64,000 bases of DNA from contig JBFMCV010000003.1 of assembly GCA_040754335.1 (NCBI GenBank), forward strand, positions 483,356-547,355, given 5' to 3'. The stretch's first letter is position 1, and each line of letters starts with the position of its first letter. Both the position numbers and the translations under genes were made by a program. This document shows, piece by piece, positions 10,087-14,561 of this stretch. This DNA comes from Thermodesulfobacteriota bacterium. GTDB taxonomy: Bacteria; Desulfobacterota_D; UBA1144; Nemesobacterales; UBA2774. The notes beneath the pieces are model-generated. The model did not search any database. It saw nothing but the letters and a program-made list of their open reading frames with translations, and was not told the origin of the DNA.

Positions 10087-10821
10087 ATGGGAATAGAGCT
10101 GAACGATATAACCATTATCCTTCCGACGAGAAACGAATCCGCCAACATACGTAATTTTTTAAGATCAGTCCCTGAAAATATCAACATGGTAGTTGTAGAT
10201 GCGAGCGAAGACCCGACAGCGGATATTGTTTCCTCTGCCCGTCCCGATTATACTACCGTGATCAGGCATCCCGGAACCGTCACCGAAGCTCGGCGGATAG
10301 GCGCCGATGCCGCAACTACCCCGTGGCTGCTCTTTACTGACGCGGATATCGTATTCTCCCAGGATTACTTCGGGAACGTCGGGAGCCTTGGAGAATACGA
10401 CCTGATATACGGACCCAAGCTGTCCCTCGACCGCTTTCGCGCCTATTACAAATGGTTCGCATACGGCCAGCGTCTCATTCACGCGCTCGGCGTGCCAGCC
10501 GCCTCGGGATCGAATTGCATCATCAGGAGGGAAGCCTACGAGAGGTCGGGAGGGTTCGACATGGAGCTCACCTGCAACGAGGATTCCGAGCTCGCTTGGC
10601 GGATAGACCGCATGGGATACAGGTCTTACTTTACCTCCGATTTGGTTGTATATGCCGGAGACCACAGGCGGCTCGAAAGGGGCGTTATAAAAAAGACACT
10701 ACACTCGATCACGAGATGCACGGCTTTATACTTCGACCTGATTCCCGACAGGCTCAAAAGCAGCGATTGGGGTTATTGGTCGCATATAAACACGAACCGG
10801 GAGCTGCAAAATGGGAACTGA
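10087..10821 (+). CDS. Glycosyltransferase family 2
   Basis: A 244-residue GT-A fold glycosyltransferase. It shows the nucleotide-sugar start ITIILPTRNESANI (about 8-21), the DxD-type metal site TDADIVF (near residue 80), GSNCIIRREAYERSGGF and the acceptor-side motif CNEDSELAWR. No TM helix is evident, so it is probably cytosolic or peripheral. There is no Shine-Dalgarno site before ATG 10087, and the predicted promoter places the transcript start at the ATG, so the message may be leaderless. The 3' end overlaps the PAP2 gene by 11 bases, indicating translational coupling. With PAP2, GT4 and the nearby ornithine-lipid genes, a role in glycolipid synthesis is inferred; the sugar is unknown. 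Confidence 0.88.
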   Translation: MGIELNDITIILPTRNESANIRNFLRSVPENINMVVVDASEDPTADIVSSARPDYTTVIRHPGTVTEARRIGADAATTPWLLFTDADIVFSQDYFGNVGSLGEYDLIYGPKLSLDRFRAYYKWFAYGQRLIHALGVPAASGSNCIIRREAYERSGGFDMELTCNEDSELAWRIDRMGYRSYFTSDLVVYAGDHRRLERGVIKKTLHSITRCTALYFDLIPDRLKSSDWGYWSHINTNRELQNGN

Positions 10822-11449
10822 GAAAAAAATATACCAGCAGACTTCCGATCCGATAATCCTGCCGCTTGACTGGCGGGACAAGTCAGCACGTATAATTTCG
10901 AACCTGTTCAGCCCGCCGCTCGTGGCGCTTGCCTGTATTCTGGTGACCGCGCTCGCGACCAAGAGCGAATCCTCATTATTCTGGATACTGGTATTCATTG
11001 CTCTGCTGATCATCCCTCCTACAGTGTTCGTCCTTACGCTCGTACACAGGGGAAAAATAAGCGACTTCCATATGAACATCAGGGAAGAACGCGCACAGCC
11101 TCTGTTTGCTATATTCGCCTATGCGGCCCTCATCTTCCTCGTAATGTATTTGGGCGGTGCTCCCAGACTGATGCTGATAGTAACCGCGGCGGCTCTCCTT
11201 CAAATACTCCTCGTCTTCATAATCACCCTTAAATGGAAAATAAGCGGTCACTGCACCTCGGCCGCGGGACTCGCGTTTCTTACGATTGCGCTTTACGGAG
11301 AGAACGTTATACCGCTCACGCTCATAGTGCCCATGATAGCCTGGTCACGCATCAGGCTCGGCAGGCATACGATTTCACAGACCCTTGCGGGGAGTTTCCT
11401 CGGAGCGGCAACCGTAATAATCATTTTATATCTGACGAACGTCCTTTGA
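10811..11449 (+). CDS. PAP2-superfamily membrane phosphatase
   Basis: A 212-residue membrane protein with about six TM segments. PAP2-like motifs are present in degenerate form: K..(x)..IREER near 78-90 for the KxxxxxxRP motif, ISGHCTSAAG for PSGH, and SRIRLGRHT for SRxxxxxH, followed by Q where D is more usual. Such LGRHT-Q variants are common in lipid phosphatases of this size. Phosphatidate phosphatase activity, giving diacylglycerol for glycolipid synthesis, is a reasonable inference because the gene sits between two glycosyltransferases in one operon behind a Pho-type box. It starts inside the GT2 gene; the GT4 gene follows after 49 bases. Confidence 0.8.
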   Translation: MGTEKKIYQQTSDPIILPLDWRDKSARIISNLFSPPLVALACILVTALATKSESSLFWILVFIALLIIPPTVFVLTLVHRGKISDFHMNIREERAQPLFAIFAYAALIFLVMYLGGAPRLMLIVTAAALLQILLVFIITLKWKISGHCTSAAGLAFLTIALYGENVIPLTLIVPMIAWSRIRLGRHTISQTLAGSFLGAATVIIILYLTNVL

Positions 11450-11498: not shown

Positions 11499-12485
11499 AT
11501 GAAAATAATGCTCGTCACGGATGCTTGGCATCCTCAGGTAAACGGCGTAGTGCACACATGGAGTTACATCACGAACATCATCGGGAGGGACCACGACGTA
11601 GCTGTCCTGAATCCTTATATAGAAGGTTCGGAACACCTCCCGCTCAAGCTTCAGGGAAACATACCGATCCTGAAAAACGCGAATCAGATCGTCAGTAAAT
11701 ATTATGACGAGCACCTGCCCGACAGGGTGCATATAGCGACGGAAGGGAGCCTGGGCCTCGCCATGAGGCAGTTCTGCAGGAAAAACAAAATCAACTACAA
11801 TACGTCCTACCACACGAGACTAGCTGACTACGGGTGGGTTCTTTACGGGGTTCCCACGTTCCTCACCTGGCTCTACGTGAGGTGGTTCCACAGGTGCAGC
11901 AGGAAAGTTCTCGTGACCACAAAGAGCATAGCAAGGCAGCTCGGACTAAGTAACTGCATCGTATGGGGTCGGGGGGTAGATACCAGGCTCTTCAATCCCG
12001 GAGACGGAGAAAAAACCGCTCGCGAAAAAACCATTATAACCGTGGCCAGGGTGAGCAAGGACAAAAATCTCGACGATTTCTGCAGAATACCCGGATACAG
12101 GAAGATCCTCGTGGGCGACGGACCTTATCTGAGTACCCTCAAGAGCAGATACCCCGACGTCGAATTCGCCGGGTACGTACCCCACAACAGGCTTAAGGAC
12201 ATATATACGCAGGCTCAGGTATTCGTATTCCCGAGTAGGTTCGATACGTTCGGACTCGTGATACTCGAGGCCATGGCCTGCGGCTTGCCGGTAGTGGCAT
12301 ACGATGTCCCGAGCCCGAACGACATTATTCAGAACGGGATCACGGGATACCTGGGAGACAGCCTGGAAGAGAACGTCGAGAAAGCCTTCAACAAACTGAG
12401 CTCCCTATCGCGCAATGCGCTCGAGTACGCTTGTACACAGAGCTGGAAATCGATCGCCGACCAGTTCGTAAATCATCTCATGTGA
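11499..12485 (+). CDS. Glycosyltransferase family 4 (glycolipid-synthase-like)
   Basis: A 328-residue GT-B enzyme. The N-terminal half begins VTDAWHPQVNGVVHTW, as in diacylglycerol glycosyltransferases and SqdX-like enzymes. The C-terminal donor site has WGRGVDTRLFNP, VFVFPSRFDTFG and VILEAMACGLPVVAY, with the conserved EAMACG glutamate region. It is shorter than SqdX (about 380) but complete at both ends. GAGGAG lies 11 bases before ATG 11499. It is the third gene of the Pho-box operon (GT2, PAP2, GT4). By context it may glycosylate the diacylglycerol released by the PAP2 enzyme, giving a phosphorus-free glycolipid; that substrate is inferred, not shown. Confidence 0.88.
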   Translation: MKIMLVTDAWHPQVNGVVHTWSYITNIIGRDHDVAVLNPYIEGSEHLPLKLQGNIPILKNANQIVSKYYDEHLPDRVHIATEGSLGLAMRQFCRKNKINYNTSYHTRLADYGWVLYGVPTFLTWLYVRWFHRCSRKVLVTTKSIARQLGLSNCIVWGRGVDTRLFNPGDGEKTAREKTIITVARVSKDKNLDDFCRIPGYRKILVGDGPYLSTLKSRYPDVEFAGYVPHNRLKDIYTQAQVFVFPSRFDTFGLVILEAMACGLPVVAYDVPSPNDIIQNGITGYLGDSLEENVEKAFNKLSSLSRNALEYACTQSWKSIADQFVNHLM

Positions 12486-12562: not shown

Positions 12563-12617
12563 TTTAATTCCGTCTTAACCGGAATATAAAATTGCCTTAA
12601 CAAGAAAGCGCTAGAAT
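12563..12617 (+). promoter_or_regulatory. Pho box B with -10, upstream of a short terminated transcript
   Basis: Units TTTAATT (12563), CTTAACC (12574), TATAAAA (12585) and CTTAACA (12596) are spaced 11 bp. Nine bases after the last unit is TAGAAT (12612-12617). The geometry is identical to box C, which also ends CTTAACA, 9 bp, TAGAAT. No gene follows before the terminator at 12673-12709. Confidence 0.6.
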
Positions 12618-12623
12618 AATATC

Positions 12624-12709
12624 ATCTGCTATTTGATTGCCCGCCTCTCTCACCGGGCACTCTAAAAGATTCGGGCGGGTCCCGGCCCGCAGGGACCCGT
12701 CCTTTTTTT
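12624..12709 (+). ncRNA. Candidate phosphate-responsive small RNA (about 86 nt)
   Basis: The interval between the -10 of Pho box B and a strong terminator is about 86 bases and has no open frame worth calling. It can fold a first hairpin (TGCCCG at 12638-12643 with CGGGCA at 12654-12659) and then the terminator stem. A dedicated promoter, structured body and U-tailed terminator are the hallmarks of a bacterial sRNA. Alternatives are a remnant leader of the next gene or just a terminator for the GT4 operon 190 bases upstream. Confidence 0.4.
12673..12709 (+). terminator. Strong intrinsic terminator
   Basis: GGGCGGGTCCC (12673-12683) pairs with GGGACCCGTCC (12692-12702), an 11-bp stem with one G-U pair and an 8-base loop, followed by seven T (12703-12709). 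It can end the GT4 operon and the candidate small RNA. Confidence 0.85.
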
Positions 12710-12782
12710 CCACGGCTCAACCAATTTATTTAAATATTCCAGGTCGCAATAGAACAAAGATCTAAATATCGATGCCTTATTT

Positions 12783-12826
12783 CTTAACACAATCTTCACA
12801 CAGTCTTAACAATCGACATATAGAAT
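12783..12826 (+). promoter_or_regulatory. Pho box C: three 11-bp repeats plus -10, upstream of the 197-aa protein
   Basis: Units CTTAACA (12783), CTTCACA (12794) and CTTAACA (12805) are exactly 11 bp apart; 9 bp later comes TAGAAT (12821-12826). Transcription would start near 12833, about 23 bases before ATG 12856. This is the cleanest of the five boxes. Confidence 0.75.
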
Positions 12827-12855
12827 TACCCCCATCAATTTCCTGGAGGGGTGAA

Positions 12856-13449
12856 ATGGAAACGGATAATCTGGACAGATCTCTGTTGGAGAGCAAATTC
12901 GAAAGGCTAATATCGAAATCGAAAGACTATATCAACACGAGGAACGAAGGAGAGCTGGAATCACTCAGGAACGACCTGATTCATCTCAAGGTAAAGCTCG
13001 AGACAGCGATAGAAAAAAGCAGGAAGAAACAAAATCCGAATAATGTTACCGCCCTCAGACTCATGCTTTCGATAATCCAGAAACTCACGTATTCGGTACA
13101 CCTTATGGAAAACCTCAAATCGAAAAAACCCATGTGTACCGATTTCGATACCAAACAGATGCTCGACGTACTGCTCCCGCATATAAGGATTCTGGTCGAG
13201 AATGAAAACTGGCGTGAAAAGCTGGATACGAAAAAACTGGAAGAAGACTACTCGTATATCGAATCTCTGGAGGACCAGCACAAGAGGGTCATGCTCACGT
13301 ACCTGATCCAGGACTGGCACAACATAGACGAGGTTATAAACCTGCTGAAAATCGGCGAGCTATACAAGAATATTGCAGAAAAACTGGTAAGCCTCTCCAT
13401 CATATCAAACGTATCCAACAACGGTGATAAAAGACTGAAAACATCTTAG
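12856..13449 (+). CDS. Helical protein of unknown function, behind a Pho-type box
   Basis: A 197-residue soluble, mostly helical, highly charged protein with no signal peptide or TM helix. The first 70 residues look coiled-coil prone (SLLESKFERLISKSKDY, then ELESLRNDL and KVKLETAIEKSRKK). I do not recognise a family; the all-helical pattern recalls PhoU-like or histidine-phosphotransfer bundles, but no signature of either is visible. The start at 12856 has GGAGGGG 6 bases upstream and lies just after the promoter; an upstream in-frame ATG at 12772 is ahead of the -10 and cannot be used from it. The gene is flanked by lipid glycosyltransferase genes and convergent with the MurG-like gene. Confidence 0.75.
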   Translation: METDNLDRSLLESKFERLISKSKDYINTRNEGELESLRNDLIHLKVKLETAIEKSRKKQNPNNVTALRLMLSIIQKLTYSVHLMENLKSKKPMCTDFDTKQMLDVLLPHIRILVENENWREKLDTKKLEEDYSYIESLEDQHKRVMLTYLIQDWHNIDEVINLLKIGELYKNIAEKLVSLSIISNVSNNGDKRLKTS

Positions 13450-13505: not shown

Positions 13506-14561
13506 TCAGTCCGTCCCGCCCGCGCCGTTTTTATTGAAATCCGGCTCCGCAATATAATCGTTCAGCGCGTCAGCCCTGGAAGTGCCGTCGAGTATCCTCT
13601 CCACGATTAACGGAAGGTTGTTCTTGTAGTTCGCGTTAAATACAAAATCCGAATTTATCCAGTCGCATAATTTATTTTCGAAACCCTGTCCCAGGTTCCT
13701 GACCACAGGTATACCCAGTCTCTCAAGCGCCTCGGCGTTACACTGCTGCTCATATTGTCTCCTCATGGGAATGACCATCAGTTTTTTGCCGAGGTAGAGC
13801 GTCTCGGCGGGGGTTTCGAACCCCGCGTTGCAGAGTATGCCCTCGCACTCGGACAGGCTTCTCACGAACTCGCCGTTATTCACGGGGTAAACGGTGACGT
13901 TCGAGTCCTTATAAGGCTCTCCCTTGTGATGCTTCGAAAACACCTCCCACCTGACGTCTATCTTCTTTAACAGTCCCGAGAGGAAGCTGTAATCATAGGA
14001 AGGAAGGTAGACCGTATAATGCCCCCTGTTCTTTACATCGGAGTTTCTTATCTCCTCCCTTATTATCGGCGTGAATATAAAATCGTCGTATTCCTGGAAA
14101 TGAAGTCCTATGTGAGTGGGAGACGGCGAGTACCATTTGATTATGAGCTCCTGTATACGGTTTTTTTGTCTGGGTCTCGGGATGTTCGGGGAAAGGAATG
14201 CAGCCTGGTGAGACAGCGAAACGGAGGGTGCGCCCCTCAGTTTCGACGACCATGCCGTGATCGGCTCGAAATCGCTCACTACCAGGTCATACTTGTCTAC
14301 CGGTATATTATATATGTCCGAGAGCAACTTGTACGGGCTGAAGTTTTTAATAGAGTGCCAGTAGTCTATTCCGCCCCGTTTCCCAAACGTGAAACCCAGG
14401 CCCGGGAGCTTGAATTTCACTTCGAACCCGGGATCGACCTCGTGATGATAGCCGCTCACGAGAACATCGACTTCCGCATGCTTGAGAAGGTACTTGAGCA
14501 GCTCCCTGCATCGGGAGATATGACCGTTTCCCGTACCCTGAATTCCGAATAATACTTTCAT
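13506..14561 (-). CDS. MurG-like glycosyltransferase of the MJ1255/VC2487 type
   Basis: A 351-residue GT-B fold protein. The N-terminus MKVLFGIQGTGNGHISRC is the glycine-rich acceptor-side loop of the MJ1255 group, which is related to MurG and family 28. The C-terminal donor site includes CEGILCNAGFETPAETLYLGK and the MVIPMRRQYEQQCNA segment. No membrane segment is present; such enzymes work at the inner face of the membrane on lipid acceptors. The ATG at 14561 has a modest AGGG site. A Pho-type promoter lies about 290 bases upstream on the same strand (box E), leaving a long leader. A role in glycolipid synthesis during phosphate limitation is inferred from its neighbours; donor and product are unknown. 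Confidence 0.82.
   Translation of the reverse strand: MKVLFGIQGTGNGHISRCRELLKYLLKHAEVDVLVSGYHHEVDPGFEVKFKLPGLGFTFGKRGGIDYWHSIKNFSPYKLLSDIYNIPVDKYDLVVSDFEPITAWSSKLRGAPSVSLSHQAAFLSPNIPRPRQKNRIQELIIKWYSPSPTHIGLHFQEYDDFIFTPIIREEIRNSDVKNRGHYTVYLPSYDYSFLSGLLKKIDVRWEVFSKHHKGEPYKDSNVTVYPVNNGEFVRSLSECEGILCNAGFETPAETLYLGKKLMVIPMRRQYEQQCNAEALERLGIPVVRNLGQGFENKLCDWINSDFVFNANYKNNLPLIVERILDGTSRADALNDYIAEPDFNKNGAGGTD

Follow-up and report, generated by a model that had tools for sequence, protein, structure and literature searches.

The window, by which we mean the whole stretch of 64,000 nucleotides that was analysed, contains a gene for a protein of 197 aa, here termed PHOUL. The gene and the features around it are as follows.

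10811–11449, plus strand: PAP2-type phosphatase (PF01569), a conserved upstream neighbour in the family (synteny)
11499–12485, plus strand: GT4 glycosyltransferase (PF00534/PF13692), upstream, nearby in only part of the family (synteny)
12574–12617, plus strand: degenerate Pho-like promoter of a candidate small RNA (CTTAACC 12574–12580, CTTAACA 12596–12602, TAGAAT 12612–12617)
12624–12709, plus strand: candidate small RNA of about 86 nt between the GT4 gene and PHOUL, conserved in six genomes
12783–12811, plus strand: Pho box of three 7-mers (CTTAACA 12783–12789, CTTCACA 12794–12800, CTTAACA 12805–12811) in steps of exactly 11 bp, shared with pstS and with all readable orthologue promoters
12821–12826, plus strand: -10 hexamer TAGAAT, 9 bp past the third box unit
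12845–12851, plus strand: ribosome-binding site GGAGGGG, read from the window sequence
12856–13449, plus strand: PHOUL gene, encoding a divergent PhoU-fold protein (open reading frame, orthologues, AlphaFold2 model, Foldseek)
13506–14561, minus strand: MJ1255/VC2487-type glycosyltransferase, convergent with PHOUL and its conserved downstream neighbour (PF13528; TIGR00661 of NCBIfam below the cut-off; synteny)

The open reading frame opens with ATG at 12856, its stop codon ends at 13449, and it is a real gene that is conserved. The orthologues begin at the same methionine or a few residues away from it, which supports this ATG; an alternative start at 12772, which would give 225 aa, was discarded, since the box would then fall within the gene and the orthologues begin at 12856. 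Both the reading frame and a ribosome-binding site of its own had been noted in a preliminary description of the locus and are present. That description also held that the product has no known signature, which is true of Pfam and NCBIfam, where no model matches PHOUL, but not of the fold, for which Foldseek points to PhoU. Weak Pfam matches (YscI, Mre11_C and others, with E-values of 0.007 or worse) differ for nearly every member and were attributed to chance, and matches to CRAL-TRIO obtained with single-sequence phmmer were gone once a profile was used. Literature searches returned no earlier account of the family.

PHOUL is present in 13 of the 16 genomes of the family to which the window belongs, in one of them as a fragment of 22 residues where the contig ends. 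Within the phylum, orthologues occur in 13 genomes besides that of the window, two of them being fragmentary; the only one outside the family, with about 40% identity, is in a genome of the same order (G034), and none was found elsewhere among 58 genomes of the phylum. A scan of one genome per species across 84,980 species gave matches solely in contigs of the same group, which in the named collection are mostly labelled ‘Candidatus Dadabacteria’, and the records named by the scan are metagenome-assembled genomes throughout. As far as these sequence searches reach, PHOUL is found only in Dadabacteria.

AlphaFold2 was run on 12 sequences of the PHOUL family. The model of PHOUL itself (pLDDT 85.3, pTM 0.82) consists entirely of helices, arranged in two three-helix bundles (8–28/31–57/61–85 and 99–113/125–152/154–195), in agreement with the earlier statement that the product is helical and has no membrane segment. 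When this model was compared with the PDB by Foldseek, PhoU filled ranks 1 to 10, with top TM-scores of 0.69–0.70. PhoU was one of the folds that the preliminary description had put forward for a structural search; the others, HPt and lipid-binding bundles, are absent from the significant PDB matches.

The scores from sequence comparisons of PHOUL with PhoU are each weak when taken singly, yet they always name the same family. A search of the PDB with the PHOUL family profile ranks the Aquifex PhoU first (E-value 0.026), and in whole genomes of the order, the sole profile matches beyond the orthologues are the canonical PhoU proteins of five genomes (E-values of about 0.003). An hhalign alignment of PHOUL with the organism's own PhoU covers 82–84 columns at 27–28% identity and spans the inter-bundle linker; its score of 28.6 compares with a best of 20.3 from column shuffles, 0 of 200 shuffles reaching the former value. 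The conserved core of PHOUL, LEDQHKRVLLTYLIQDWHNMDEV, corresponds to a conserved PhoU stretch, LEPQIVRELVTYMIADPQTIDRS. This remote homology is strongest in the C-terminal half of PHOUL, and the N-terminal half resembles PhoU through its predicted structure only. It is almost certain, in our judgement, that PHOUL has the PhoU fold and is homologous to PhoU.

The curated models for PhoU (PF01895) and PhoU_div do not match PHOUL; indeed, PF01895 matches 0 of the 12 members, and a genome search with it does not recover the gene. In the canonical PhoU of the order, ERIGD and ERVAD were both retained in all 27 proteins examined, and both ExxxD metal motifs are absent from the PHOUL family. Two registers are possible in the last helix of PHOUL (K171/E175 or L164/E168), and in each of them the first acidic residue is lost and the second is Glu. 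Since the Pfam cut-off is not reached and the metal motif is missing, PHOUL is a remote homologue of PhoU yet not a filed member of its family.

Compared with canonical PhoU (PF01895; 1t72 from Aquifex, 1sum from Thermotoga, 4q25 from Pseudomonas), PHOUL shares the two three-helix bundles, a similar length, a conserved core of the form ..Q..R.L.TY...D....ID... and the same box as the pst operon, but it has neither a PF01895 match nor an ExxxD motif in either bundle, and it lies outside the pst operon behind its own Pho-box promoter in a genome that also encodes canonical PhoU. The pst operon contains pstS-C-A-B (pstB at L052:2459–3316), a gene for a low-molecular-weight phosphatase and canonical phoU (L052:1262–1924), and PHOUL is not encoded there. 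The phosphatase-family gene (PF01451; L052:1970–2395, minus strand) lies between pstB and phoU. Also of note in this operon is a PstC-type permease of 765 aa (L052:5046–7343, minus strand), which has weak beta-propeller matches at about residues 204–424, ahead of the permease domain.

A 2026 study recognised three groups of PhoU-type regulators, each paired with one importer family (PMC13170248), and PHOUL fits none of them. Like PitR (PhoU_div, PF01865), it is a small separate protein with a PhoU-type fold encoded outside pst, but it has no PF01865 match and no adjoining Pit gene, and its presence is independent of Pit. Like the PhoU domain of NptA-type Na/Pi cotransporters (PF02690 + PF01895), it is a divergent PhoU-type bundle, but PHOUL is a stand-alone soluble protein of 197 aa, and an NptA-PhoU fusion is encoded elsewhere in the genome (L065). 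A different family (f4) has second PhoU paralogues (L101–L106), which, like PHOUL, are stand-alone PhoU-type proteins (204–207 aa) alongside canonical PhoU. These paralogues, however, are found by PF01895 (some below the cut-off), keep ERIGD, have no Pho box in the 150 bp upstream and show no detectable sequence relation to the PHOUL family, so the idea that they bridge PHOUL and canonical PhoU was dropped. At most of the f4 loci (L101, L102, L103, L104, L105 and L106), a cation-efflux-type transporter gene is nearby.

The control of PHOUL can be read from its promoter. The position of TAGAAT relative to the third unit means that the box takes the place of the -35 element, and TATAGAAT is unchanged across the genus, in all four of its species. 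The box is no chance occurrence: when three mismatches at most are allowed, the three-unit pattern has a single match in the window and 0 in 100 shuffles. The preliminary description had called this the best box of a set; the box is exactly as it described, but there is no set, since it is the sole full box in the window, the runner-up at 12585 (11 of 14 positions) being ahead of the candidate small RNA. No box was found at the surrounding lipid genes in the window. A PHO box has been defined as 7-nt units in 11-nt steps (PMC4415409), and the upstream region of PHOUL has this layout of the Pho regulon, with tandem 7-nt repeats in 11-nt steps before the -10, in common with pstS.

A search of the family's 16 genomes for the exact pattern CTTMACA-N4-CTTMACA, with the reversed pattern as control, gave 40 matches against 2. 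Of these, 28 precede pstS (12 genomes) or PHOUL (11 genomes). A whole-genome scan that tolerated two mismatches was uninformative (25 matches against 22 in the control); only the strict pattern separates the two. In aligned promoters, pstS retains 12–14 of the 14 consensus positions (13 loci) and PHOUL 13–14 (12 loci). The proposal of a Pho-controlled gene had been staked on the box persisting in related genomes, and it is present in all 12 PHOUL orthologues with a readable upstream region. Given that it marks pstS and PHOUL above all, the box ahead of PHOUL is, on this evidence from promoter sequences, a true Pho box, and PHOUL is very probably a member of the Pho regulon, with a promoter to which PhoB would bind. 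The earlier suggestion of a new phosphate-stress protein, possibly a regulator, gains support from the box in common with pstS throughout the family and from the PhoU fold.

The further strict matches that were inspected are ahead of a phosphate-porin-type gene (Porin_O_P), a PPK2 gene and the gene of an 80-aa protein. The porin gene is divergent from genes for a response regulator (L190:467–1156) and a Cache-HAMP-PAS histidine kinase (L190:1164–2933), which form a PhoB/PhoR-like pair. The PPK2 (polyphosphate kinase 2) gene has the strict box upstream in two genera (L053 and L141). In the case of the 80-aa protein, the strict box is 75 bp upstream in two species (L054, site G000:C1:368308, and L143), and the gene is a candidate for another phosphate-stress gene.

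Upstream of PHOUL, the candidate small RNA comprises an invariant 5' stretch, ATCTGYYATTTGATTG, followed by one small hairpin, a strong, GC-rich terminator hairpin (12673–12702) and a run of T. In its box, the outer units are separated by a 22-bp step and the middle unit is degenerate. It folds better than shuffled sequences (z = -4.05), and 2 of the 19 pairs in its consensus structure are changed on both sides with pairing kept; this covariation support is modest, since several other terminator pairs are disrupted in one sequence. No Rfam family matches it. In the six genomes that have it, it is present in a single copy and only at the PHOUL locus, upstream of the gene.

Taken with the fold, the promoter leads to the interpretation that we consider probable, namely that PHOUL is an orphan paralogue of PhoU, a divergent PhoU fold within the Pho regulon, which is induced by starvation and adjusts the Pho response through protein–protein contact. 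At low phosphate, PHOUL would be induced, along with pstSCAB-phoU and the phosphate porin, by phosphorylated PhoB (of the PhoB/PhoR-like pair encoded next to the porin gene), which would occupy the 11-bp repeats that replace the -35 element. The resulting protein, a soluble and metal-free adaptor, would in turn alter phosphate signalling or uptake during starvation. The likeliest route would be contact with PhoR and/or PstB, or else pairing or competition with canonical PhoU, either of which would amount to feedback. This exact role, that of a feedback adaptor of the Pho/Pst pathway, is plausible but falls a little short of being probable. The signalling role could differ or have been lost, since a canonical phoU is already present in the pst operon of the genome.

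Another possibility, though an unlikely one, is that PHOUL is an adaptor for lipid remodelling, which binds the membrane-associated PAP2, GT4 and MJ1255-type enzymes encoded around it and makes the exchange of phospholipids for phosphorus-free lipids depend on the phosphate state. The Pho box of PHOUL would suit this role, as would the order of genes in the family, which is PAP2-(GT4)-PHOUL-convergent MJ1255-type glycosyltransferase-(OlsB-OlsA)-rumA-queA up to the contig limits. However, rumA and queA, which are housekeeping genes, accompany PHOUL as constantly as the lipid genes do, so proximity says little in favour of a role in lipids, and among the box matches inspected, none is ahead of a lipid gene. 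The neighbourhood search proposed in the preliminary description did find GT4 and OlsB/OlsA beside part of the orthologues, but OlsB/OlsA do not adjoin PHOUL in two of five genera (g2 and g5), and at G034 the box is retained with no lipid gene adjacent. The constancy of the box across these differing contexts favours phosphate signalling over a glycosyltransferase scaffold. The link to lipids is the weaker one (the lipid genes have no box and do not adjoin PHOUL at G034), and the idea of a scaffold for the glycosyltransferases finds no support other than adjacency.

It could also be supposed that PHOUL works with a non-Pst importer and stands in for PitR with the orphan Pit (PF01384) transporters of the family. 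PitR (PF01865) is above the cut-off in none of the family's genomes, in which Pit is common, and the other PhoU-type proteins are each paired with one importer family (PMC13170248). Co-occurrence nevertheless makes such a substitution unlikely, and we regard it as having a slim chance: three genomes (G003, G005 and G014) have PHOUL and no detected Pit gene, G034 has both PitR and PHOUL, most of the relatives that have Pit are without PHOUL, and Pit adjoins PHOUL in no locus seen.

About as improbable is a link between phosphate and transition metals, in which the adaptor would work with metal exporters because phosphate shortage frees more metal. At the G034 locus (L107:8370–13231), the orthologue overlaps a heavy-metal-domain gene by 4 bp, followed by genes for a P-type ATPase (HMA_2) and for cation efflux, a locus that is possibly a phosphate–metal operon, and the second PhoU paralogues of f4 are also near cation-efflux genes. 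The arrangement is, however, that of a single genome; family f1 shows no metal gene beside PHOUL, and the metal motifs of PHOUL itself have been lost. Finally, convergence, that is, a helical bundle that came to resemble PhoU without common descent, might be invoked because such bundles are common and the curated PhoU models do not match, but it is very improbable, given that the PDB top ten is exclusively PhoU and that independent sequence evidence names the same family.

The reading of PHOUL as a starvation-induced orphan paralogue of PhoU may have a wider implication. We offer as a speculation that PHOUL represents a fourth PhoU-type clade beside PhoU, PitR and the NptA domain, in the form of an importer-independent, metal-free adaptor which is made only in starvation and conveys the phosphate state to non-importer targets, accompanied in part of the family by a Pho-controlled small RNA. 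If so, a PhoU-fold protein with no importer partner and no metal motif, whose most constant attribute is its box, would break the rule of one importer family for each PhoU-type group (PMC13170248). These results suggest that the Dadabacteria, which have been little studied, possess in PHOUL an additional type of regulator of the phosphate response, and it would, if this is true, provide a first handle on phosphate signalling in these bacteria.
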